Program-made: the position numbers and the translations under genes
Notes under the pieces: model-generated
What the model was told of the DNA's origin: nothing
What the model saw: only the letters and a program-made list of their open reading frames with translations
Database searches by the model: none
Part shown: positions 7,997-59,951 of the stretch, piece after piece
Numbering within the stretch: position 1 is the first letter of the stretch
How the letters are laid out: every line of letters starts with the position of its first letter
NCBI GenBank assembly: GCA_958510825.1
Contig: OY294044.1
Location: 74,694,895 to 74,758,894, forward strand
DNA: 64,000 bases
Direction: 5' to 3'
DNA from: Brachypterus glaber
Lineage: Eukaryota > Arthropoda > Insecta > Coleoptera > Kateretidae

Positions 7997-8340
7997 TTAT
8001 GACGAATTGTGGTTATTCACCCTTGACGAGGTTTTTCCTATCAAAGACTTCCATATTGCAGGTAAGTGGTAACCAGTGTCCCGATTGATATTGTTAGGAT
8101 GCTTGATGATTTCTATCGATTCCCGTATCTTCCTTGGCATTTTTTCTGTTTTCTGTTAATATTTGTTTTGTTTCAGACAAATTGATTTTATGACCTGTTT
8201 CATGTACATGTTCGGCTACTGCCTATAAGGAAATTTGTTTCTTTCTTATATTGCGCTCATGCTCTTGAAGTCTTGTAGAAATTTTTCTCTTAGTTTCACC
8301 TATGTAAACCGTACCACAGGAGCAGGGTATTTTATATAAG
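7997..8340 (-). pseudogene. Penelope-like GIY-YIG endonuclease fragment
   Basis: The minus strand reads YKIPCSCGTVYIGETKRK, then an RLQEHERN segment, then AVAEHVHETGHKI. These are the conserved blocks of the GIY-YIG endonuclease that ends the single Penelope-like polyprotein: the YIG motif, the conserved arginine/histidine region and an upstream Cys-x-Cys. The family enzyme nicks target DNA for retrotransposition. The reverse transcriptase part is absent. There is an in-frame stop just before AVAEH and a one-base frameshift near 8127. Past the shift, the frame continues with HPNNINRDTGYHLP to a stop at 7997. It is a dead fragment. Confidence 0.8.
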
Positions 8341-9287
8341 AGACGAAACGTCGGAAAGTGAAAATCCATTAACACGATCTAAACCCGAAAGTGAAAGTTC
8401 TTTATATCTTAATGGCCGTGAAAGCTTAAAATCTAAAATATCCTACGGGAATTAAACCCTGGACGATTTACAAAAATTAATACCGGTACCATTTATGAAA
8501 CTTCCCTATTTTGCATTAAAATAAAATATATAATATATAAAATAAAAAAATATGTATATCTTTTGTTTATATGCTAATTCTACTGATATTAATTATTGTT
8601 ATTACACATAAAACAATTTGGTAACTGTACTCACTGAAGAGAAATATCCTTAGAAAAACTTGCAGATACATACATCAGTTTAAGCAATTTTTTGACAGAC
8701 CTTATCTATTGAGGTTAATTAAAAACTACCAAATTGTGTATGAGAATTTATCTCCAAGCTAGATATTATTGAAAGTCATAAGTTGTCTCAAAAATCTTTT
8801 CGAGAGAAATTAAAAAAGTAAGATTTGCGGGCCGGTACGATATAGGCTGCCTTTCCCTACTATTTTTTGAGATATGTCAAAATTACTTTTAGATAACCCC
8901 CTACTTAATCGTTTTTTTAAGCTAAAAAATACATTTAACGCTTTCTCTAGCCTTTCGGAAAAATAATTATAAAAAATAAATTACAATTTTAAATTAAAAG
9001 GTAAATACAAGTAACTACTGAAGAAAGACTATTTAGAATAATGCAGATGAAAAGTTATCATTTTTTATGTTTTGCTCTAATCCCCACGGCTTTAAAACAA
9101 TCTCTTCAGAAAAAGCTTTCTTACTAAAAAATATAATAATAATTTAAATAAATAAAATTATCCACCGAATCCATGTTTTGATGCTATTCATTTCAAAGTA
9201 AGTAAAGATCGCTCAAAAGGCAAAAAAGTTATATCGGCTTAGAAAGTGTCCGTTTTTTTTTTTGGCCACCCTGTAAAATGTACAATG

Positions 9288-23827: not shown

Positions 23828-24304
23828 ACAACAACACATGGTGTTCCCAAGCGGTCACCCATCTAAGTACTAACCGCTCCCTTTTTTTTAATTTAAAAAG
23901 TCTTTATTTAAGGTCAATATTTACATAGCAGTTTTTCAGGACAGAACATTTAAAACTTAAATCTAAAAACATTTATACATATATAAATCGGGGGAGGTTT
24001 CCCGGGATCTCACCGGGTCCCCGGCACCCCCGTTCGCCGATCGGAGCATCCCTGCATCCCACCTCTACACTGCCAATGTGTATTGGCTGCATGCGCAAAG
24101 TGTAGCGGAGGGACTAGCGGACACACCGCACGGCGCCCGGGGGCGCCGAGGTTCCGAAGAGACCCCGTTCGCCCTCCCCCGAGGCCTAGATCCATAAACA
24201 TTTCTAGGTTGGCTGGAAAAGTGGAGCCAAAGTACGGCGACGACGCTGCTTAGATTCAGAGATCAGACGAGTTCTGGCATTTTCAGCGTGGTTTGGTCGT
24301 TGCC
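23828..24304 (-). pseudogene. 5S rRNA-like unit 1, split by an insertion
   Basis: The 3' half is 23828-23880 (including the complement of GGTTAGTACTTAGATGGG) and the 5' half is 24241-24304. About 360 foreign bases separate them. Confidence 0.75.
23881..24240 (-). mobile_element. Non-LTR retrotransposon 3' end inserted in the 5S unit
   Basis: On the minus strand this reads from GC-rich sequence through a stop after a GGMQGCSDRRTGVPGTR-like frame, into an AT-rich 3' region with AATAAAGAC and a terminal run of A. That is the profile of a 5'-truncated LINE 3' end. It sits exactly between the CTCCC and GACGCTG blocks of the 5S sequence. High GC content and rDNA location suggest an R1/R2-type element, but no domain proves the clade. 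Confidence 0.6.
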
Positions 24305-24377
24305 GTGAAAATGTAAAATAAACCAGCGAATATAAACATAATTATTCTGTATACATTATTTGAAAACCTGACAAAAA

Positions 24378-24495
24378 GACAACAACACGTGGTGTTCCCA
24401 AGCGGTCACCCATCTAAGTACTAACCGCTCCCGACGCTGTTTAGCTTCAGAGATCAGACGAGTTCTGGCATTTTCAGCGTGGTTTGGTCGTTGCC
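24378..24495 (-). rRNA. 5S rRNA-like unit 2 (most intact)
   Basis: 118 bases on the minus strand, close to the usual ~120. It starts GGCAACGACCAAACCACGC, has an A-box-like AGCTAAACAGCGTCGGG and a C-box region GGTTAGTACTTAGATGGG, and is followed directly by a TTTTT pol III terminator. The 20-50 region (ATGCCAGAACTCGTCTGATC) differs somewhat from typical arthropod 5S as I know it, so it may be a pseudogene or a variant. Confidence 0.7.
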
Positions 24496-24569
24496 GTGAA
24501 AATGTAAAATAAACCAGCGAATATAAACATAATTATTCTGTATACATTATTTAAAAATCTGACAAAAAG

Positions 24570-24686
24570 ACAACAACACGTGGAGTTCCCAAGCGGTCAC
24601 CCATCTAAGTACTAACCTCGCCCGACGCTGCCTGGCTTCAGAGATCAGACGAGTTCTGGCATACCCAGCGTGGTTTGGTCGTTGCC
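24570..24686 (-). rRNA. 5S rRNA-like unit 3
   Basis: Same organisation as unit 2. Substitutions include an altered GGTTAG-preceding block (CGAGGTTAG) and a changed ATACCC stretch. T-run terminator present. The ~75 bp spacer with CAGCGAATATAAACATAATT is shared by all units. Confidence 0.6.
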
Positions 24687-24760
24687 GTAAAAATGTAAAG
24701 TAAACCAGCGAATATAAACATAATTATTCTGTATACATTATTTAAATACCTGACAAAAAG

Positions 24761-24889
24761 ACAACAACATGTGGTGTTCCAAAGCGGTCACCCATCTAAG
24801 TACAAACCGCGCCCGACGCTGCTTGGCTTCAGAGATCAGACGAGAAATTAGACGAGTTCTGGCATTTTCAGCGTGGTTTGGTCGTTGCC
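24761..24889 (-). pseudogene. 5S rRNA-like unit 4 with internal duplication
   Basis: About 11 extra bases (a second TAGACGAG after GACGAGAAAT) interrupt the region 5' of the A box. Confidence 0.65.
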
Positions 24890-24963
24890 GTGAAAATGTA
24901 AAATAAACCAGCGAAAATAAACATAATTATTCTGTATACATTATTTAAAAACCTGACAAAAAG

Positions 24964-25090
24964 ACAACAACACGTGGTGTTCTTAAGCGGTCACCCATCT
25001 AAGCACTAACAGCGCCCGACCAGAGACTACAATTTTTTATATCTAGCCCGACGCTGATTGGCTTCAGAGATTAGACGAGTTCTGGCATTT
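24964..25090 (-). pseudogene. 5S rRNA-like unit 5, truncated
   Basis: About 32 bases (CAGAGACTACAATTTTTTAT and on) are inserted in the middle. The 5' end of the gene is lost at TTCTGGCATTT, where GAAGAT-rich sequence begins. Confidence 0.65.
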
Positions 25091-28821: not shown

Positions 28822-28882
28822 GTAGGAACCTGAATAATAATAATAATAATAAATAAATAATAATAATTTGCTTTCTTTCTAG
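28822..28882 (+). other. Intron 1 of the transposon gene
   Basis: GTAGGAAC donor and CTTTCTTTCTAG acceptor. It contains an (AAT)n run. Confidence 0.65.
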
Positions 28883-29967
28883 TGTCAAAAAATACTGACT
28901 TTCAATCAAATAAACACAAGATTAATATAATTTCTGATGTATTAATTTCAAAATCTCAAGAAATGTCGCCAAAAGCTAGCGAAATTGAAAATCCTGAAGA
29001 ATTCATTGTCGATTTATTAAACAATATTATAGAAGATGCAGTGGAAATAAGTAAAAATAATCAACTAAAGAAATTTACAAAAAAAGGAGAAGTACGAAAA
29101 AGGAAACTACACAGCACATCCTTAGAACAAAGAAAAAAACAGAAAAAAGAGGAAAAAATTGGAAAACATGGTGTTCAGGAAACATGCAGGCAAAATTGCA
29201 CAAAAAAATGTTCTCAAATAATTGACATAAACAGGCAAAATGCTATAAATAAAGAATTCTGGGAATTGACCTACGAACAACAACGTCAATTTATTTTTAG
29301 TTCAGTAAAGAAAATCACTAAAAAAAAGAAAACTAAAGATGGAGACTCTAGGCGTAGTAATACAATCGTTTATTATTTAAAAGCCGATACAGGGACTGAT
29401 GTAAAAGTGTGCAAGAAATTTTTTTTGGCAATTTTGAGGTATCCAGTTCATAATGATAGAATCGTAAGAGATGTTTTAGTTAGAACTGATTCAAAATGTT
29501 TGCTTGTCAAACCATTAAAGCGAGGACACCCGTCTGAGAAAAAAATTGATAGACAATCCATTATAGACCATATAAACGGTTTTGGTCCAAGAATAGCCCA
29601 TTATAGAAGGGAACATGCTCCTAATAGAAAATACCTCCCCAGTGATATTAACATTAAATTAATGCATAACGATTTTCTCAAAAAGTATCCTGGAATTCAT
29701 GTTTCATACGAACTTTATCGCCAACAAGTTGAGATGAATATTTCGTTTGCTGTGCTAGGTCATGAAGAATGTTGGCCATGCGAAACATTTGATCTTCATT
29801 CTAAAAACTCCAAACACGACAAGAATAAACTTACTTTTGATTGTGACGATTGGCAAAAATGGAAAATTCATTATGAAGATGCCATAGAAGCGAGAAATGA
29901 ATATAAAATTGACGCATCTTCAACAGCAGGCCCAGAATCATTATGTTTTTCTGCAGACTTGCAGAAG

Positions 29968-30021
29968 GTATATCATTTTTTATGTTAATCAGCAAAATGC
30001 TATCATTAAATTAAATTTTAG
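29968..30021 (+). other. Intron 2 of the transposon gene
   Basis: GTATATC donor and AAATTTTAG acceptor. Removing it joins LQK directly to VIMLPRCE. Confidence 0.7.
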
Positions 30022-31596
30022 GTGATAATGCTACCACGCTGTGAAATGTTCAAAGAAATAATTTTTACACCAAGGATCATTTGTTTCAATGAAAGTTTTG
30101 TTCCCCTAGGCAAGCAATCTTTAACAAACAAGCCCGTAGCTGCTGTTTGGCACGAAGGAGTAGCTGGGAGGAGTAAATCTGATATTATATCAACATTTTA
30201 CAAATTTCTTTCGTTTCAACGTGACGCCACAGAAATAACAATTTGGCTAGATAATTGTGCATCACAGAATAAGAATTGGGCTCTGTATTGCTTTTTTGTT
30301 TATTTAATTAACTCAGCAGAAGTAAATCTAAATTTATTAAAAATAAAATATTTACAAACTGGTCACACTTTCATGTCCGCTGACTCTTTCCACCATCAAG
30401 TGGAGAAGTCCTTAAAACAAACAGGATAAGTATTAGATTTTGAGGATTTTAAATTGTGTGTAAAAAAAAGTAATAGTTCAAGGGTGGAAGTGATTGAAAT
30501 GAATCTTAATGATTTTTGTGATTTTATTGATTTTTCTCCCCGATATAAAATGAATAAAATTATACCTAAACCTTATCTAGCCAATTTTGTACAAGTTCAG
30601 TTTACAAGGTTCTAAAAACCTATTTTATAAAACTAAATTCAGTGGTGAATTGATTGAACTAAACTTCCTCCTGGCAAAACATTATAAAGATGAGCTACCA
30701 GATCAGATTGGGTTTCATTGTACGACATTTTATCTAACCGGTTTTGTTAGATACGACATTTGGTCTTCGTATTATACTAAGACAAAATATCGTATCTAAC
30801 AGAAGTCTTTTTTTTTGCAAATTCTGCTACATACATTATTTAAGATTTCTTGTATTGGTTTATTAAAGTTAATTCCACCCTTTAGCACTAAACATGGAAA
30901 CTATTACCAAAAAACGGAGATGGCATATCATAATTTACAAATTGCTTAATATCTCGAAACCTTGTTTTTCCAGATACGACTTCCTGTCTTAGCAGGGCAT
31001 AATGGCTCTTTAAAAATGGTGCATTTTTAGGAGATCACAGCACCCGTAGGACTGATTTTTTGAAGTAGGTGTATGTGAAGTTTTTTCTTAGTTTTTGATG
31101 TACATTTGCTTAGCATCATTGTTTCGATTTTCAACATTTTAGAATTTAATTTTTTGTCCTCGAACAGTGAAATTTCACCTCCAAATTAATTTTTCTCGAA
31201 AACGGTATTACAGTATTACAATAAGGGTATCTTTTTTATGTATTTTGACCTGAATAATCACATTCCAAAAATAAAATTACAAATATGTTTAACAGAAAAA
31301 AGTTTTGTCAAAAAATTGATAAGGCCTCCCCGCTTCGCACACCCCTAATTAATTTAAGTACACGAAAATAACATACAAAGATCGGACCTATTAAGACTAA
31401 ATCACATACAAAACCTCGTTGCTATATCTCAAAGGCTTTTTGAGTTATTAAATAAAAACCGAATATTTTAGCCACTTTCAATGGGGCTTATCTACCTTAC
31501 GACGCATTTTTAGACATATGTTTATTGGAACTTTTTGACATTTTTGATAATAGAATCACTCCTTAAAATTTCGGACCCTATTTCAAATGCACCGTG

Positions 31597-38894: not shown

Positions 38895-41800
38895 TAAGCG
38901 ATTTTTTGCGAGTAATCATAGTCAACTTTTCACTATAAAATTGAGTTGTAAAAACATTAGCGGTAAGAACAATGTTTAGTAATTACACAGATCCACAAAA
39001 AATAATTAAGTTTAATGACCATTAACCTGACTATTTTTTTTACGTACCCGGAAATAGTTTCAGTCATATTAGCTGAATTTCGGATGTTATAGTTTTCGAC
39101 CTTCAATAGTTTACGTGCTAGAGAAGTTTAAAGATTTAGAGCTAACTCGCCAGTACTCCTTTCTGCAGTTTTTTGCGAGTAATCATAGTTAATTTTTTAC
39201 TACCTATAAAGTTAAGTTGTAAAAACGTTTGCATTAAAAACAATGTTTTAATTACATCGGCCCACAAAAATACGTGCCTCGCTTCCTTCTTATGTAAAAA
39301 TAGTTTCAGTCATATTTGGCTGAATTTCTGATATGTTATAGTTTTCGACCTTCTGATTTAAAGTTATTCAGGGCACAACTCCCAAAAATCAATAATTTAG
39401 GTTCTAGAGGACTTTGAAAATCTTTTAAACCGCGATGTTCGGTAACCGGTGTTATGAAAGACTAGTTTCGGTCCGATTTGGTGAAATTTTGGCTGTGTCT
39501 TTGGGTAAAGCTCCCAAAATTTAATAATATAGGTGCTAGAGAACTTTAAAGATCTCGAACTAACTCGCCAGTACTCATTTTCGCAGTTTTTTGCGAGTAA
39601 TCATAGTCAACTTTTTACTACCTATAAAGTTCAGTAGTAAAAACATTTGCATTAAAAAAATGTTTTAATTACAGAGGTCCACAAAAATAATTAAGTTTAA
39701 TTACCATTAACCAGACTATTTCTTACGTACCCCACTTCCTTCTTATGTAAAAATAGTTTCAGTCATATTTGGCTGAATTTCGGATATGTTCTAGTTTTTG
39801 ACCTTCTGATCGAAAGTTATTCAGTGAAGAGCTCCCAAAAATCAATAATATAGGTGCTAAATTTGAAAATCTTAAAAACCGCGGTGTTCCGTAACCGCTC
39901 TCATGAAAGAGTCGTTTCGGTCCGATTTGGCTGAATTTTGGCAAAGCGTGTTTGGTCACAACTCCCAAAATTCAATAGTTTACGTTCTAGAGAAGTTTAA
40001 AGATTTAGAGCTAACTCACCAGTACTCCTTTCTGCAGTTTTTTGCGAGTAATCATAGTCAACTTTTTACTACCTATAAAGTTAAGTTGTAAAAACATTTG
40101 CATTAAAAACAATGTTTTAATTACATCGGCGCACAAAAATACGTGCCTCGCTTCCTTCTTATGTAAAAATAGTTTCAGTCATATTTGGCTGAATTTCGGA
40201 TATGTTATAGTTTTCCACCTTCTTATTAAAAGTTATTCAGGGCACAACTCCCAAAATTCAATAATTTAGGTTCTAGAGCACTTTGAAAATCTTAAAAACC
40301 GCGATGTTCGGTAACCGGTGTTATGAAAGACTCGTTTCGGTCCGATTTGGTGAAATTTTGGCTGTGTCTTTGGGTAAAGCTCCCAAAATTCAATAATATA
40401 GGTGCTAGAGAACTTTAAAGATCTCGAACTAACTCGCCAGTACTCATTTTTGCACTTTTTTTCGAGTAATCATAGTCAACTTTTTACTACCTATAAAGTT
40501 GAGTAGTAAAAACATTGGCATTAAAAAAATGTTTTAATTACACGGTCCACAAAAATAATTAAGTTTAATTACCATTAACCAGACTATTTCTTACGTACCC
40601 CACTTCCTTCTTATGTAAAAATAGTTTCAGTCATATTTAGCTGAATTTCGGATATGTTCTAGTTTTTGACCTTCTGATCGAAAGTTATTCAGTGAAGAGC
40701 TCCCAAAAATCAATAATATAGGTGCTAAATTTGAAAATCTTAAAAACCGCGGTGTTTCGTAACCGCTCTCATGAAAGAGTCGTTTTGGTCCGATTTGGCT
40801 GAATTTTGGCAAAGCGTGTTTGGTCACATCCCCAAAATTCAATAGTTTACGTTCTAGAGAAGTTTAAAGATTTAGAGCTAACTCGCCAGTACTCCTTTCT
40901 GCAGTTTTTTGCGAGTAATCATAGTTAATTTTTTACTACCTATAAAGTTAAGTTGTAAAAACATTTGCATTAAAAACAATGTTTTAATTACATCGGCGCA
41001 CAAAAATACGTGCCTCGCTTCCTTCTTATGTAAAAATAGTTTCAGTCATATTTGGCTGAATTTCGGATATGTTATAGTTTTCGACCTTCTTATTAAAAGT
41101 TATTCAGGGTACAACTCCCAAAAATCAATAATTTAGGTTCTAGAGTACTTTGAAAATCTTTTAAACCGCGATGTTCGGTAACCGGTGTTATGAAAGACTC
41201 GTTTCGGTCCGATTTGGTGAAATTTTGGCTGTGTCTTTGGGTAAAGCTCCCAAAATTTAATAATATAGGTGCTAGAGAACTTTAAAGATCTCGAACTAAC
41301 TCGCCAGTACTCATTTTTGCAGTTTTTTGCGAGTAATCATAGTCAACTTTTTACCACCTATAAAGTTCAGTAGTAAAAACATTTGCATTAAAAAAATGTT
41401 TTAATTACAGAGGTCCACAAAAATAATTAAGTTTAATTACCATTAACCAGACTATTTCTTACGTACCCCACTTCCTTCTTATGTAAAAATAGTTTCAGTC
41501 ATATTTGGCTGAATTTCGGATATGTTCTAGTTTTTGACCTTCTGATCGAAAGTTATTCAGTGAAGAGCTCCCAAAAATCAATAATATAGGTGCTAAATTT
41601 GAAAATCTTAAAAACCGCGGTGTTCCGTAACCGCTCTCATGAAAGAGTCGTTTCGGTCCGATTTGGCTGAATTTTGGCAAAGCGTGTTTGGTCACAACTC
41701 CCAAAATTCAATAGTTTACGTGCTAGAGAAGTTTAAAGATATAGAGCTAACTCGCCAGTACTCCTTTCTGCAGTTTTTTGCGAGTAATCATAGTCAACTT

Positions 41801-42650
41801 TTTACTACCTATAAAGTTAAGTTGTAAAAACATTTGCATTAAAAACAATGTTTTAATTACATCGGCCCACAAAAATACGTGCCTCGCTTCCTTCTTATGT
41901 AAAAATAGTTTCAGTCATATTTGGCTGAATTTCGGATATGTTATAGTTTTCGACCTTCTTATTAAAAGTTATTCAGGGCACAACTCCCAAAATTCAATAA
42001 TTTAGGTTATAGAGCACTTTGAAAATCTTAAAAACAGCGATGTTCGGTAACCGGTCTTATGAAAGACTCGTTTCGGTCCGATTCGGTGAAATTTTGGCAG
42101 AGTGTCTTCGGGCAAAACTCCCAAAATTCAATAATATAGGTGCTAGAGAACTTTAAAGATCTCGAGGTGACTCGCCAGTACTCATTTTTGCAGTTTTTTG
42201 CGAGTAATCATAGTCAACTTTTTACTACCTATAAAGTTCAGTAGTAAAAACATTTGCATTAAAAAAATGTTTTAATTACAGAGGTCCACAAAAATAACTA
42301 AGTTTAATTACCATTAACCAGACTATTTCTTACGTACCCCACTTCCTTCTTATGTAAAAATAGTTTCAGTCATATTTAGCTGAATTTCGGATATGTTATT
42401 GTTTTCGACCTTCTGATCCAAAGTTATTCAGGGCCCAGCTCCCAAAAATCAATAATATAGGTGCTAGAGCACTCAGAAAATCGTTGTGTTCGGTAACCGG
42501 TGTTATGAAAGAGTGGTTTCGGTTCGATTTGGCTGAATTTTGACAAAGGGTCTTTGGTCACAACTCCCGTAATTCAATACTTTACGTGCTAGAGAACTTT
42601 AAAGATTTTGAGCTAACTCGCCAGTATTCCTTTCTGCAGTTTTCTGAAAA
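38895..42650. repeat. Satellite with ~868 bp higher-order unit (419 + 448 bp monomers)
   Basis: The landmark GCAGTTTTTTGCGAGTAATC (with small variants) recurs at about 39171, 39586, 40034, 40453, 40901, 41321, 41769 and 42188. Spacings alternate near 419 and 448, so two monomer types form a ~868 bp dimer. Like monomers are more alike than neighbours: AACAATG versus AAAAAATG after GCATTAAA, and ACATCGGC versus AGAGGTCC. The first monomer (38899) and the last (to 42650) are diverged or truncated. Repeating reading frames (for example 40042, 40909, 41778) are by-products. Confidence 0.9.
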
Positions 42651-45354: not shown

Positions 45355-45511
45355 TAAGTTCTAGCGCCGTAGGTGAAAATATTGACAAATTTCAAGTTTA
45401 GGTTTTATAAACTCCAATAAAAAAGAACGTAAGGACAGAAATTTTTAATTTTAAACAAAATTATAAAAATATTAATTTATTATTCCATCAATCTATTTTC
45501 TAATCATCGTA

Positions 45512-45578
45512 CAGAGTGATATTGGTAGACTGACAGTTTCGGGCTGCTGGCCCTCTTCAGTACCAAGAGTCAACTCTG
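45512..45578 (-). ncRNA. Type I hammerhead ribozyme, unit 1
   Basis: Read on the minus strand: stem I TTGGTA/TACCAA extended by CAGAG/CTCTG across an internal loop. Then the core CTGAAGA (CUGANGA), stem II GGGC/GCCC with loop CAGCA, GAAA, and stem III ACT/AGT closed by a three-base loop. The cleavage base C17 directly precedes TACCAA. All core nucleotides of the hammerhead are present. The asymmetric internal loop in stem I is where the loop-loop contact of natural hammerheads forms. Confidence 0.9.
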
Positions 45579-45865
45579 CACGCTGATTAAGAAAACGTTT
45601 TTAGACTTTACTCGCAAAAGGAATATAGCCATTAGATTGATGTAGACTTGTGCGCCATCTATTTCTAGATGTAGACAACTACTCATACCTCTCCTAATCT
45701 GGAGACTTTGAATGGTAGCAAGTTGAAGACTTGTGTGTCTCAAGCACATAGTACCACTAACGGGTGGTTAGACGTAAAATTAGTAAGGACAGAAATTTTT
45801 AATTTTAAACAAAATTATAAAAATATTAATTTATTATTCCATCAATCTATTTTCTAATCATCGTA

Positions 45866-45932
45866 CAGAGTGATATTGGTAGACTGTCAGTTTCGGGCTG
45901 CTGGCCCTCTTCAGTACCAAGAGTCAACTCTG
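45866..45932 (-). ncRNA. Hammerhead ribozyme, unit 2
   Basis: Same fold. One substitution (GACTGTCAG on the plus strand) lies in the stem III loop and does not touch the core. Confidence 0.9.
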
Positions 45933-46219
45933 CACGCTGATTAAGAAAACGTTTTTAGACTTTACTCGCAAAAGGAATATAGCCATTAGATTGATGTAGA
46001 CTTGTGCGCCATCTATTTCTAGATGTAGACAACTACTCATACCTCTCCTAATCTGGAGACTTTGAATGGTAGCAAGTTGAAGACTTGTGTGTCTCAAGCA
46101 CATAGTACCACTAACGGGTGGTTAGACGTAAAATTAGTAAGGACAGAAATTTTTAATTTTAAACAAAATTATAAAAATATTAATTTATTATTCCATCAAT
46201 CTATTTTCTAATCATCGTA

Positions 46220-46286
46220 CAGAGTGATATTGGTAGACTGACAGTTTCGGGCTGCTGGCCCTCTTCAGTACCAAGAGTCAACTCTG
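46220..46286 (-). ncRNA. Hammerhead ribozyme, unit 3
   Basis: Ribozyme identical to unit 1. The only difference nearby is CTGTTTAAG for CTGATTAAG, outside the ribozyme. Confidence 0.9.
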
Positions 46287-46573
46287 CACGCTGTTTAAGA
46301 AAACGTTTTTAGACTTTACTCGCAAAAGGAATATAGCCATTAGATTGATGTAGACTTGTGCGCCATCTATTTCTAGATGTAGACAACTACTCATACCTCT
46401 CCTAATCTGGAGACTTTGAATGGTAGCAAGTTGAAGACTTGTGTGTCTCAAGCACATAGTACCACTAACGGGTGGTTAGACGTAAAATTAGTAAGGACAG
46501 AAATTTTTAATTTTAAACAAAATTATAAAAATATTAATTTATTATTCCATCAATCTATTTTCTAATCATCGTA

Positions 46574-46640
46574 CAGAGTGATATTGGTAGACTGACAGTT
46601 TCGGGCTGCTGGCCCTCTTCAGTACCAAAAGTCAACTCTG
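46574..46640 (-). ncRNA. Hammerhead ribozyme, unit 4
   Basis: One change (ACCAAAAGTC for ACCAAGAGTC on the plus strand) falls in the stem I internal loop. Confidence 0.88.
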
Positions 46641-46926
46641 CACGCTGATTAAGAAAACGTTTTTAGACTTTACTCGCAAAAGGAATATAGCATTAGATTG
46701 ATGTAGACTTGTGCGCCATCTATTTCTAGATGTAGACAACTACTCATACCTCTCCTAATCTGGAGACTTTGAATGGTAGCAAGTTGAAGACTTGTGTGTC
46801 TCAAGCACATAGTACCACTAACGGGTGGTTAGACGTAAAATTAGTAAGGACACAAATTTTTAATTTTAAACAAAATTATAAAAATATTAATTTATTATTC
46901 CATCAATCTATTTTCTAATCATCGTA

Positions 46927-46993
46927 CAGAGTGATATTGGTAGACTGACAGTTTCGGGCTGCTGGCCCTCTTCAGTACCAAGAGTCAACTCTG
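46927..46993 (-). ncRNA. Hammerhead ribozyme, unit 5
   Basis: Identical to unit 1 across the fold. Confidence 0.9.
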
Positions 46994-47280
46994 CACGCTG
47001 ATTAAGAAAACGTTTTTAGACTTTACTCGCAAAAGGAATATAGCCATTAGATTGATGTAGACTTGTGCGCCATCTATTTCTAGATGTAGACAACTACTCA
47101 TACCTCTCCTAATCTGGAGACTTTGAATGGTAGCAAGTTGAAGACTTGTGTGTCTCAAGCACATAGTACCACTAACGGGTGGTTAGACGTAAAATTAGTA
47201 AGGACAGAAATTTTTAATTTTAAACAAAATTATAAAAATATTAATTTATTATTCCATCAATCTATTTTCTAATCATCGTA

Positions 47281-47347
47281 CAGAGTGATATTGGTAGACT
47301 GACAGTTTCGGGCTGCTGGCCCTCTTCAGTACCAAGAGTGAACTCTG
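47281..47347 (-). ncRNA. Hammerhead ribozyme, unit 6
   Basis: One change (AGAGTGAACTCTG for AGAGTCAACTCTG) in the stem I internal loop. Core intact. Confidence 0.88.
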
Positions 47348-47634
47348 CACGCTGATTAAGAAAACGTTTTTAGACTTTACTCGCAAAAGGAATATAGCCA
47401 TTAGATTGATGTAGACTTGTGCGCCATCTATTTCTAGATGTAGACAACTACTCATACCTCTCCTAATCTGGAGACTTTGAATGGTAGCAAGTTGAAGACT
47501 TGTGTGTCTCAAGCACATAGTACCACTAACGGATGGTTAGACGTAAAATTAGTAAGGACAGAAATTTTTAATTTTAAACAAAATTATAAAAATATTAATT
47601 TATTATTCCATCAATCTATTTTCTAATCATCGTA

Positions 47635-47701
47635 CAGAGTGATATTGGTAGACTGACAGTTTCGGGCTGCTGGCCCTCTTCAGTACCAAGAGTCAACTCT
47701 G
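47635..47701 (-). ncRNA. Hammerhead ribozyme, unit 7
   Basis: Identical to unit 1 across the fold. The following partial unit stops before its own ribozyme. Confidence 0.9.
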
Positions 47702-48819
47702 CACGCTGATTAAGAAAACGTTTTTAGACTTTACTCGAAAAAGGAATATAGCCATTAGATTGATGTAGACTTGTGCGCCATCTATTTCCAGATGTAGACA
47801 ACTACTCATACCTCTCCTAATCTGGAGACTTTGAATGGTAGCAAGTTGAAGACTTGTGTGTCTCAAGCACATAGTACCACTAACGGGTGGTTAGACGTAA
47901 AATTAGTAAGGACAGAAATTTTTAATTTTAAACAAAATTATAAAAATATTAATTTATTATTCCATCAATCTATTTTCTAATCATGATGATTAGAAAATAG
48001 ATTGATGGAATAATAAAAAAGAACGTATAAAAGCTATAGCGCCGCAGGCGATTTTTTTATAAATTTTATAGCCTATTTGAATTTTAGAAGTATTACTATT
48101 TAAAGTTGAAATAATAGAAAACTGTAGTGCCGCAGGCGAAAATTTTTACGAATTTGAAGCTGTAGGGTCCACTTGGAAAAGAGCCTGCATATTTGCTTCG
48201 CTTTGTGCCCTTATCGTTCTTAGCGCCGCAGGAAGAAATTTTATAATCTATTTAAATTTTAAAGGTGGTACTATTTAAAGTTTAAATGCAAGAAAAGTCT
48301 AGAGCCTCAGGCGAAAATTTTTACGAATTTTAAGCCGTATGGTAAAAAAGCTAGATTTTTTTAGTAATTTTATAGTCTATTTTAATTTTAATAGTGTATT
48401 TAAAGTTTAAATGCAAAAAAAACTAGCGCCGCAGGCGAATAAAATTACGAGTTTGAAGGTGTATGGTCGGCTTGGAAAAGAGCCTGCATATTTGCTTCGC
48501 TTTGTGTCCTTATCGTTCTGGGAAAGTAAAAGTAAAGTATAAACTTTTTATTATAAACCATAAGAAACTACCAATGCCGGGCCCCTTGAACCCGGGCCCG
48601 GAAAAGCTTCAAAAAATTTTAGATTTTTGTATAAAATTTTAAAATTTTGGTCCCCCGCTTGGACTTTTGCTGTTAATACGATTATTTACATTCTCAAAAT
48701 TTAATTTTGATAAGTTAATAAACAAAAAAATCCCACCACTATTTTGTGGCACTATTTTGTGGTATATACTATATCTAGGGAGTACGCCTTCGCCAAATTT
48801 CAATTATTAATTAACTGAA

Positions 48820-51176: not shown

Positions 51177-52244
51177 CAGGGTCGGATTTAAAAAAATATT
51201 ATGAAAATTCTAAATTTTTAAATAAAATACACTAGTTTACAAATTTTGGGTTCTTCGCGTGTACCTCAAAGAAAAAGTAATTTCTATACTAATTTTGGGT
51301 CGCTGAAAACAAAAAAGATACTTATTTTTTTTCCAAAGAAGTGTTATCTAGATACACGCAGAAAACGTGTTTTGTGGTTCTTTTTTAGTTAATGGCAAAA
51401 ATCTCGGGAGACGTTGATCCAACTAATATGAATTGTACATTGTTCAAAAGGTATGTTCTTTTTCTTTCCGATGATATACTGTTTGTGATAATTGGATTAA
51501 AATTTATTGGGTTGCGAAAGTCGAAAAAAAGTAGATTTTCTAAACTTTTTTGAAAATCACTCATATTTAGTTGTTCCATGAAGATAAAAAAAATATTTTA
51601 CATACTTTTAAGATTGCAGGTGAGAGATAATTCTATAACAAAAATATAAAGCCTAAAAATGACGAAAAAGTTATAGCATATTAAGTGAAGGCAGGCAATT
51701 TCAGTTATTTACATATTCATACTTTTGGTCAAAAATATATTTTTTTACTCAAACTTTTTACCCGTACCCCCCATTTTTTCAAAACATAATTGTCCCATGC
51801 AGGGAAGCATCTAAGGCATTTGTACGCTGGGGGCTGCCTTTTTTTTAATTTCATATCGTAAACTCAAGTGTTACAGTCTTAAATTAAAAAAAGAAAGTCT
51901 TAGCGCCACAGGCGAAAATTTTTACAATTTTGATAGTCCATTTTAACAGTACTTTAAATTTCAAAAAATGCAAGCTCTGGCGCCGCAGGTAACTTTTTTT
52001 ACAAATTTTACGCTTAAGTTTTACAAGCTTGAATTTAAATAAACGTAAATTAGCCCTAGCGCCGCAGACTAAAATTTTTACCAATTTCAGGGTCTATGGC
52101 CCACTTGGAAAAAGCTCTGCATATTTGCTCGTTTTGACGCCTTTTTTTTGTTGGAATATACAACTGTTTATTGTAAACTTCTGACGCCGGGCCCCCCTAG
52201 AGCCTGGGCCCCGGGTAATCTGCACGCCCCTGAATCCGACCCTG
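51177..52244. mobile_element. hAT-like non-autonomous element with GCGCCGCAGG units
   Basis: CAGGGTCGGATT at the left is mirrored by AATCCGACCCTG at the right. Inside are AGCGCC(A/G)CAGGCGAA-like units (about 51902, 51980, 52061), then CCACTTGGAAAAAGC and GCCGGGCCCCCCTAGAGCC. The same succession occurs at 48035-48600. CAGGGnCGGATT ends with GGGCCC-rich subterminal sequence are familiar from animal hAT elements. A matching 8 bp duplication is not visible. Confidence 0.6.
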
Positions 52245-56186: not shown

Positions 56187-59100
56187 TTAAAGCTTAATGT
56201 TTACTGACTCTAGGAAACTGACTACCGTTTCTACTACTACTTGTGAAGTGTTATTAAGGATGTGTGCTACATTGATTGAGCTGCCTATCGTACTACTTAG
56301 CTTGTGGTATAGTTCATTCATTTGGGCTTCATGTAAGGGGCATTCTAAAGGTATGTGGTGGATGTCTTGTATGCTTCCACAGTGACACTCTGGGTTGTCT
56401 TCTAAGTGTATACGGTGTAGATATGATTTTGTGAGACAATGCCCACTTCTTAGGCGAAGGAAAGTAGTCGTATGCCTTCTGTCCAGTTTTGTTGATTTTA
56501 TCCATGGTTTTGTTAACTTTGTGGTATGGGTTGCGTAGAATCTGCCAGAGTGCGCTAGTATTTGAGTAAATTCGTTTTCCCATTGATTTCTTTTCATTTG
56601 TTTAATTTCTTTTATGAATTCTCGCCAATGGATTTTTATTTGGGATGGTCTTTCGAGCGTTGTGCCTATTGTGGCCAGTTTGTCCGCTTCTTCATTACCA
56701 GGTATATTGGTATGGCTTGGAATCCAACAAAATTGTACTGTAGCTCCTGAGTTTTCTAGGTCTACTATGAGTATTTTGGAAGTGTATGTAAGGTAGTCTT
56801 TTTTGTTTGAGTTCTTTGTGTCACAGATCTTGTATAATGCGGACCGAGAGTCTGAGAAGATTATAAATTTCTTTTTTTGTGATGTGCGGAACATATCAGA
56901 GGCAAAAAGTATTGCTTTTTGTAGCGCGTAATTTTCTGCGGTAGCAATGGAGAAATGTTTAGGAAGTTTTTCAGCGAATCTGTAATTTGTTGATGGTATG
57001 TATATTCCTATTCCGACATTGCCCTCTGAGCTTACAGACCCATCGGTATACAGCTACAAAGTTTTCCCAGTTCTCATTCACATAAGTTAAAAACATGCCT
57101 CTATTATCAGTATCTTTTTTAAGGGGAGGGATGTGGATTTTTTTTTTAGGATGATAGATTGAAATTCCGTGTTAAAAAGGGGAATATTGTTTGATTTTTG
57201 GATTAATGGAGATTTGTTGAGGTAGAAATCTAGGGCATATATTAGGGGAGGGCGGGTACGGTTAGACCAATATCGACCTCCGTCGTAAAAATCCGCATAT
57301 ATGGTTATTAACTTCGCTAAGATTGTGCTATGTTCCATTGAGAAAAGTTTACCTACATAACGGCATGCCAGCCATTCCCTTCTGGCTGATAGGGGTTGTT
57401 CGCCCGTCTCAGCCAAGAGGATATTGGTGGAGGTGGACTTCATGAAACCTCCTATTATCCTGAGGCATTGGTATTGGGTTTTTGACAGTTTTTGAAGTGA
57501 TTTTTTGGGAACTCTGAAGAAAAGGGTACTTCCTAAGTCAAAATGCGGTCTGATTGTGGCGTTATATAGAATTAATAAGGTGATTGGAGCACCCCATTTG
57601 GTGCCACATAGGGAGCGTAGGATGTTTATTCTTTTCTTAGCTTTGTTACAGAGCATATCTATATGTTCTTTCCAGTTAAGTGAGTATTCAAGGATTGCAC
57701 CCAAGTACTTCACTGAGTTCGACCAGGGAATGGGTTGACCTACAATCACTATAGGCTGTAGGGGGGGATAGTTGATAGTTTTCCGAAAGAGTATGGCAGA
57801 ACTTTTTTGCGCTGATATAGTTAGACCGTGTTCTAGTAGCCAAGCTTTAATGTTTCTTAAGGTGCGATTTATAGCGTCAATAATAAGAAAAAGGTTTGAG
57901 CCGGAGCATATTAGAGCTAGGTCGTCAGCATACTGGATAATCCTGCAGCCTAAAATCCCAGAAAGGTGTAAAAGGTTTGTAAATATTTTGAAAAGTATCG
58001 GGCTTAGTATAGATCCCTGAGGGAGGCCTATCGACGCTACATGGGGGCCTATTTTATCGTTCCGAGCCTCTATCTAAAATATATACATTACGATTTTGAT
58101 ATAAAAGTATAATGACGTCAGCAATGTCTTTAGGTATGTTGATTTGTGCTAGTAATGGATATAAAATGGATAGATCTACATTATCAAAGGCCGAGTTTAT
58201 ATCGAGTGTCACTAGTACGGTATGGTTCCCTGTTTGGAGTTCACTGTGGACTGTGGAGGTTATTATTGTAAGTGGGTCTATTATGCTTTTCCCTTTTCGA
58301 AATCCGAACTGAAATGGGTACAGGGAGTTGGAACGTTCTATTTTATGTTCTATTCTGTTTTTAATTAAAGTTTCAAAAGTTTTTAAAATGCAGGAGCTTA
58401 GGGAGATGGGGCGGTAGCCGGATAGTTCTGATAGGTTTCTATTGGGTTTTGGGATTGGGATAATCAAGTAATCTAGCCATTGTGGTGGGGGCGGTGTGTG
58501 ACCTGAGAGAATTTTGTTAAAGAGATTCAACATTTTTATTTTAGTGGATTTGTGTAGGTTCTGCAGCATGGAGTAAGTTATAAGGTCTATGCCTGGAGTT
58601 GAGTCAACTTTTCCTTCGAGCGCATATTCTAATTCCAACAGGCTGAATGGGGGGGATGAATTTTCGTTGAAGACGATTTCCGGTTTTTTTGGTAACGCAG
58701 TTTGTGGGCAAAGTTTGTTAAGCAGTTCTGTGTTGATAGATTTTAGTGGGAGGGCCTTAGGGGGGGGGGTTCCGAGCCCCTAGAAAACCTTTTTACTTTA
58801 TTCTAAACGATACTAAGGGGGGTGAATCGATTAACATTTTCGCAAAATGTTCGAAAACTCTGTTTTTTCTGCCGTTTGAGATTTTTTTTTGTTTCTGCAG
58901 CTGTTTTTTTTGGCCTGAAGGAAATTGTCAAGGTTAAAGTTAATTTTTAAAGTATTAAAGGCTTCTTTTCTGTTGCTAACTGCAGCGTCGCAGGCATCTA
59001 ACCACCAGGGGCAGTAAGGTGCTTTTTTTTGAGTTTTTGATTTTAGGTATAGCTTGGTCAGCTGCAGCCTTAATAAAGTTCTCGAGTTCGTTGTAGCTAT

Positions 59101-59878
59101 CAAAGTTATTTAAATAAGACGAATCGGATGTAATTTTATAGTTAGTCCAGTCTGCTTTTTTTAGATTATATTTTTCTATTGGGGGAGGAGGGTTAGGGGT
59201 GGTGACCTGGGGGTTAACGTTTACTATTATGGGGTAGTGATCGCTGAGTCCCGGATCTGATTTTACATCGAAATTGGATGTTCTGGCTATTATTGGGGAT
59301 GAGATTGCTATATCTGGGGCGCTTATTCCGGGAGGGGGGACTACTCTAGTACCTGCTCCATTGTTTAGGATGACGAGACCATTGTCGTGTATTAAATCGT
59401 ATAGGGTATTACCGTTGTTAAATGAGAGCTGGGATCCTATAGTGGAGCCCCTAATGGGGTTCTGTGCATTGAAGTCTCCTATGAGAATGAACGGGGTTTT
59501 TAGTTTATCGATTAGAGTTTTTATTGTTTGAATGGGGAGGGGGAGGTTAGGGGGGTTATAAAGTGCAATAACCGAGGCATGTTTTGTTTGTATTCCTAAA
59601 ATTTGAAAATTTTCGTGACAGTTTATTGTAGAAATGTCTACAATATCGTATTTAATGTGGTCTTTCGCTAAGAGGGCTATGCCTCCCTTGCCGTCGCGCC
59701 TATCTTGTCTATAAGAAGAGTATCCTTTTATTTTGAAATTATGTTCTGGTTTTAAAAAAGTTTCGTTTAGAGCAATAAAATCTGGATCTTCTTCTCTTAT
59801 TATTCCGATTAGTGTTGATTTATTGGAATTTACTGAGCGAATGTTCCAGTGAATTAATTTCAGACTCTCAGTTCGCAT
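56187..59878 (-). pseudogene. LINE ORF2 polyprotein (endonuclease, reverse transcriptase, RNase H), frameshifted
   Basis: Nearly full length (~1,230 codons) but broken into several frames. The endonuclease (59878 to about 59190) has LIHWNIRSVNSNK, ALNETFLKP, IGDFNAQN and LSDHYPI, all catalytic landmarks of AP-like endonucleases. The reverse transcriptase has YRPISLSSC, FGFRKGKSI, LDINSAFDNVD, GLPQGSILSP (about 58000-58030, after a frameshift) and YADD (about 57921-57934). The RNase H has YTDGS (about 57040), AENYAL, FSDSRSAL and GNEEADKLA, so all four acidic positions survive. The C-terminus has a CHCG..H....C motif typical of these elements. RNase H plus this layout suggests the I group (alternatives LOA, Nimb or R1). 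Confidence 0.85.
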
Positions 59879-59951
59879 TATAATTTTTAGTAAGTATTAG
59901 GGTTCAGATATAAAGAGAAGAAGGAAGAGAAAGGTGATAAAGAAGATAACT

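Follow-up and report, generated by a model that had tools for sequence, protein, structure and literature searches.

Examination of a 64-kb stretch of the genome of the beetle Brachypterus glaber (contig OY294044.1; hereafter the window) confirmed the presence of a tandem array in which every full unit carries a hammerhead ribozyme sequence. The array is flanked by a duplicated target sequence, can be compared with a proxy empty site in the same window, contains only variants that are private to single units, and ends in an inverted junction. It very likely represents a non-autonomous retrozyme without long terminal repeats (a non-LTR retrozyme) that was inserted from RNA. Comparisons with published systems are drawn throughout from extracts of the papers cited.

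Structure of the array and of its hammerheads

Tandem Repeats Finder (TRF), run over the window, detected a period of 354 with 7.2 copies and 99% matches at 45429-47984. Taken with a repeat search and the unit lengths, this delimits seven full units (354 bp, the fourth 353 bp) followed by a 79-bp partial one; the seven-unit, 354-bp array of the preliminary description is borne out, with refined limits. The RNA sense of the array is the minus strand, on which successive predicted cleavage sites are separated by 354, 354, 353, 354, 354 and 354 nt. With a length of 354 bp and a GC content of 0.356 (36%), the unit falls within the 150-450 bp and the less than 50% GC of metazoan non-LTR retrozymes. 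The partial eighth unit (47906-47984, minus strand), delimited by TRF and the unit variants, covers RNA positions 99 to 21, numbered from the cleavage site, and would be the end of a long complementary DNA (cDNA).

The array appears to be non-coding: the single open reading frame (ORF) of at least 75 amino acids (aa) inside it measures 87 aa from stop to stop (47273-47536), and was not among the ORFs scanned against Pfam. LTRs, a primer-binding site (PBS) or a polypurine tract (PPT) were not spotted by eye in the array region, where no dedicated search was made, and ARAGORN in its bacterial setting found no tRNA genes in the window. Outside the array, a search of the window for further copies of the unit yielded none, only 19 weak matches (the best with 75 columns, 71% and E 4e-4, AT-rich). 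Neither viral_contigs nor genome_contigs, the collections covered, which included no searchable set of animal genomes, matched a pattern in which 23 bases of the hammerhead were fixed. The predicted circle formed by one unit is highly paired (-90.0 kcal/mol, against -65.1 with a standard deviation of 5.6 for 100 mononucleotide shuffles).

When the two strands of the window were scanned with a hammerhead descriptor, seven hammerheads were found, one per full unit and all on the minus strand, with none on the plus strand. Their stems I, II and III measure 6, 4 and 3 bp. They lie at 45508-45582 (unit 1, with predicted cleavage between 45528, which is C17, and 45527), 45862-45936 (unit 2, a variant in the stem III loop), 46216-46290 (unit 3), 46570-46644 (unit 4, a loop 1 variant), 46923-46997 (unit 5), 47277-47351 (unit 6, also a loop 1 variant) and 47631-47705 (unit 7), the variants being those found by comparing the units. 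In 7 of 7 units, stem I is formed by UUGGUA/UACCAA, followed by an internal loop and an outer 9-bp helix, CGUGCAGAG/CUCUGUACG (minus strand). The remainder is equally constant, with the core CUGAAGA, stem II GGGC/GCCC closed by the loop CAGCA, then GAA, stem III ACU/AGU with a 3-nt loop, and C17; loops 1 and 2 are present (7+5 nt and 5 nt). The core is intact in all seven units, its sole departure from the usual CUGAUGA being an A at position 7, which for a cricket ribozyme was described as the only variable position of the hammerhead core (PMC2837043). Among 100 dinucleotide shuffles of the window, six loose matches appeared and none as strict as those of the array. An accidental origin of the hammerheads is rejected on this control, and the complete type I hammerhead previously claimed for the minus strand of each unit is, as judged from sequence, borne out for all seven.

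Evidence for insertion

The array lies between two exact copies of a 16-bp direct repeat, AATAAAAAAGAACGTA (45416-45431 and 48012-48027), a sequence that the window contains nowhere else. The last three bases of the left copy (GTA) overlap the unit and the first six bases of the right copy (AATAAA) overlap the inverted tail, which leaves 7 bp unambiguous and places the target duplication between 7 and 16 bp, above 4 bp in either case. The repeat had initially been given as 15 bp, or 9-15 bp after allowing for overlap; its exactness and its flanking position hold, and its length does not.

The target of the insertion is a degenerate repeat family marked by GCGCCGCAGGCG, found at 45355-45383, 48030-48500 and 51866-52152. 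A diverged paralog of the flanking repeat (51940-52097, plus strand; 114 of 163 columns identical, 70%) serves as a proxy empty site, its alignment to the rejoined flanks crossing the junction without a gap. With one copy of the 16-mer the rejoined flanks score 84.0 bits against this paralog and no gap falls over the junction; with two copies the score is 65.4 bits and the alignment stops at the junction, and with none it is 55.4 bits with three times as many gaps. The longer alignment to 51866-52152 likewise spans the junction and again favours one copy (123 bits) over two (109 bits) or none (113 bits). Its quality at the junction is poor, however, which leaves the register of the repeat uncertain.

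When the partial unit was compared along with the seven full ones, nine variants (0.35% of bases) came to light, each private to a single unit. This pattern fits one RNA circle copied round and round, with mutations arising later, whereas unequal exchange should leave shared variants. Three of the nine lie in hammerhead loops (none of them in loop 2), six lie outside the hammerhead and none in its 55 paired or core nucleotides, in agreement with the earlier observation that changes fall in loops or outside the fold. Chance suffices for this placement (P about 0.22), which therefore gives no evidence of selection on the fold, and such selection was rejected as a reading of the variants.

The array ends in an inverted tail, previously put at about 30 bp and here measured at 33 nt (47985-48017, plus strand), which is perfectly complementary to the unit over RNA positions 20-52. 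The two inverted arms are separated by one base, and the final six bases of the tail are common to the target repeat. The array itself starts at RNA position 96-99, three bases being common to the target, and ends after seven turns at position 21. In the simplest reading, two cDNAs, one per target strand and both antisense to the RNA, would have been joined head to head. One would then stop at RNA position 21 and the other next to it at position 20, where hammerhead stem I has its outer edge; the naive chance of two ends falling within 1 nt is 3 in 354, a figure computed post hoc for one event. In Rfam, the palindrome at this junction (47955-48015) also has a match to the mir-785 precursor family that we put down to chance (22.2 bits for a cut-off of 62).

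Relation to known retrozymes and retroelements

In the animals studied, metazoan repeats that contain type I hammerheads and measure 150-450 bp give rise to RNA in both linear and circular form (PMC7229834). The B. glaber unit fits the published description of these non-LTR retrozymes (Cervera and de la Pena 2020, PMC7229834), as the preliminary description had suggested: both consist of tandem, non-coding, low-GC units with a type I hammerhead in each, with no LTR (here by eye), a target duplication longer than 4 bp and a highly paired predicted circle. Unlike the metazoan retrozymes described in the extracts, the present one has its insertion junction resolved, with an inverted head and two start sites. 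A description of inverted heads in metazoan retrozymes was not found among the listed literature on retrozyme junctions and Penelope, which is not proof of their absence. The array displays the three retrozyme features that were tested, namely a hammerhead in each unit, the expected size and GC content, and a target duplication. By its sequence it appears to be a metazoan non-LTR retrozyme, matched to no known family in the sequence collections covered.

The pDo500 repeat of Dolichopoda cave crickets has, as its name indicates, a unit of about 500 bp. Like the present array it is an insect tandem repeat with a hammerhead in each unit and a variable core position 7, but it is described as a satellite family (PMC2837043). 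Plant LTR retrozymes are likewise non-coding, processed by hammerheads and spread through circular RNA (a circle that is only presumed here), but they carry type III hammerheads, LTRs, a PBS, a PPT and 4-bp duplications (PMC4918200). Penelope-like elements share with the array tandem type I hammerheads, a head-to-head inverted end and a palindromic junction, as well as the short target duplication of many Penelope copies and a start of reverse transcription inside the RNA, downstream of the hammerhead (PMC3846280, PMC11167929). They differ in that the array has no ORF for a reverse transcriptase or a GIY-YIG protein, nothing in it being longer than 87 aa, and in that Penelope hammerheads are described as minimal variants without helix III (PMC7761336), whereas a stem III can be drawn here.

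Proposed insertion cycle and source of the enzyme

In the cycle proposed here we infer the transcription of the array, the cleavage and circularity of its RNA, the identity of the enzyme and the order of the nicks. The minus strand would be transcribed and the RNA cut by its hammerheads into 354-nt units, which a host ligase would circularise. A reverse transcriptase acting in trans would open both strands of an AT-rich target. The plus-strand 3' end would prime cDNA at RNA position 96-99 and proceed for about seven rounds of the circle, while the minus-strand 3' end would prime a short second cDNA at position 46-52. Both cDNAs would halt at the outer limit of stem I, and their head-to-head joining would account for the inverted tail, with 7-16 bp of the target left duplicated. 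Taken as a whole, such a Penelope-type dual-strand insertion on a hammerhead circle, with two fixed internal starts 3' of the ribozyme and stem I setting both stops, is a doubtful model.

The mobilisation of metazoan retrozymes has been tentatively attributed to Penelope-like elements or to long interspersed elements (LINEs) (PMC7229834; PMC7761336). For the enzyme that acted here we lean slightly towards a Penelope-like element, which appears to be the most likely source. In a rotifer, Penelope-like copies can carry head-to-head inverted pLTRs with a palindrome at the junction, 8-10 bp duplications and, optionally, a 31-bp tail, and some copies have no duplication (PMC3846280). A purified lizard Penelope-like enzyme, which favours AT-rich DNA, both cuts and extends each of the two strands, and it begins synthesis within the RNA, mainly at bases 111-118 of the ORF (PMC11167929). 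Counted on the printed template, this main start lies 82-89 nt downstream of the hammerhead cut of that element. The starts at +96-99 and +46-52 in B. glaber can thus be set beside +82-89 and a second start near +42-59 in the lizard element. Several points weigh against this assignment. The second lizard start is deduced from a tail of 30-40 nt and was not read off a figure. For the published enzyme, initiation involves no homology to the DNA that it cuts (PMC11167929), unlike the present case, in which 3 and 6 bases are common to target and RNA. The likeness of the start sites is a resemblance of one insertion to one element.

A further difficulty is that Penelope proteins are represented in the window by just one degenerate and frameshifted GIY-YIG-like stretch (YKIPCSCGTVYIGETKRKISTR, at 8000-8350, near 8306, minus strand), presumably of the type known from Penelope-like endonucleases. 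It matches PF01541 with E 0.0014 and 19.3 bits, for a cut-off of 22.6, and the two pieces adjoining it have no Pfam match. A motif scan of the window had produced three YIG-type matches and none to a stricter GIY pattern, and this stretch is the one of the three that was picked by eye and examined further. A Pfam scan of 14 of the 56 window ORFs of at least 75 aa (5 of the 7 within 42-52 kb) found no GIY-YIG domain, and a reverse transcriptase only in a LINE at 57-59 kb.

That LINE, which we take to be I/jockey-like, is a broken element with an Exo_endo_phos endonuclease, a reverse transcriptase and an RNase H in separate frames (56187-59896, minus strand), and it lies 8 kb from the array. Twin priming yields inverted 5' ends, and a retrozyme moved by a LINE of the apurinic endonuclease (APE) type, with a minus-strand T-run annealed to A-rich RNA and the other strand priming the long cDNA, is a reading that we consider tentatively possible. 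The minus-strand target, TTTTTTATT, is T-rich, as are L1-type nicks with their four terminal Ts (PMC3649969), and hammerhead repeats of Nematostella with 15-bp duplications have been termed LINE-like (PMC4918200). However, no tail of poly(A) or of a simple repeat is present at the 3' junction, as read from the sequence, the start falls inside the unit, and the plus-strand cut, adjoining GAAC/GTA, is not T-rich.

Catalytic competence of the hammerhead

The hammerhead could be dead, never catalytic, or active only as a dimer, the units being carried passively or cleaving only in multimers, although we regard this as unlikely. The core is intact in all seven units, and its one departure from the usual sequence falls at the site reported as variable (PMC2837043). 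Several results nevertheless count against a competent single-unit ribozyme. A comparison with the Rfam hammerhead models, proposed in the preliminary description, came out below threshold. Rfam called no hammerhead at the gathering score, nor at E values of up to 10 over 2.8 kb spanning the array, and for a 111-base stretch the best of five listed matches was RF03152, RAGATH-1-hammerhead, with 21.3 bits (cut-off 56.3) and E 0.083. RNAfold, which takes no account of tertiary contacts or dimers, favours a hairpin that pairs the ACUG of the core with stem III, with an optimum of -93.3 kcal/mol for the circle, so that the minimum free energy fold hides the core. Keeping stems I and II gives -87.4 kcal/mol, about 6 above the optimum; since stem III did not form in this constrained fold, the energy is a bound for the other two stems alone. 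Over the 90-nt stretch of the hammerhead, each of the three stem III pairs has a probability of 0.0 and the innermost pair of stem I one of 0.31.

Stem III is short (3 bp with a 3-nt loop), and its strand is nearly self-complementary, with a predicted duplex of -9.7 kcal/mol between like units and of -13.7 kcal/mol between the unit 2 variant and another unit. Axolotl retrozymes are cleaved well only as dimers (PMC7229834). Since stem III is disfavoured and its strand nearly self-complementary, this precedent makes cleavage as a dimer a real possibility.

Origin of the inverted tail and of the array

The inverted tail could instead have arisen by fold-back of the cDNA 3' end, with no second primed cDNA, which we consider rather unlikely. 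The junction, ATCATGAT, is palindromic, and self-priming has been proposed for the palindromes of Penelope (PMC3846280). However, the arms lie 1 nt apart, a loop too short for a single molecule, and the extra G goes unexplained, although it is expected from a second cDNA reaching position 20.

The reading with two cDNAs that stop at stem I meets its own objections. In the predicted circle, no helix ends at position 20/21, where a 1x1 mismatch separates stem I from another helix; this weakens the idea that the cDNAs end at the base of a helix. As the stem continues past this mismatch, we can only guess that stem I blocked synthesis. Moreover, synthesis of the long cDNA must have gone through the hammerhead some seven times before it halted at this point, the inverted junction (47984/47985) may contain an assembly error, and the evidence comes from a single insertion.

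Growth in place of a plain tandem satellite by unequal exchange, the hammerhead being incidental, is highly improbable: hammerhead arrays of salamanders, schistosomes and Dolichopoda crickets are described as satellites (PMC2837043), but here the 16-bp duplication with its proxy empty site, the inverted tail and the lack of any shared variant among the nine led us to reject it, and together with the shuffle control they support the preference for insertion expressed in the preliminary description.

Other features of the window

Three tandem 5S rRNA genes were detected at the Rfam gathering score at 24377-24889 (minus strand), in an array with a period of about 191 bp (24241-25020). A second tandem array occupies 39102-42296, with a period of about 418-452 bp, 7.4 copies and 66% matches; it contains no hammerhead in the descriptor scan and no Rfam match at the gathering score. 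Interrupted ORFs lie at 28867-30429 on the plus strand, the second of which matches DUF7869 (PF25273, E 1.4e-07).

Significance for animal retrozymes

On the question of what moves animal retrozymes, a 2020 review reports that the animal repeats carry no conserved motif pointing to a partner retrotransposon (PMC7761336). The insertion in B. glaber is young, in view of variants at 0.35% of bases. Its two junctions, with the inverted head and the duplicated target, and the proxy empty site together offer a sequence-level test of this question. Were the Penelope-type dual-strand reading true, identical starts and an identical stop would be expected in all copies of this retrozyme family. It would also name the long-sought mobiliser of animal retrozymes, and the ribozyme would then shape the inserted DNA as well.

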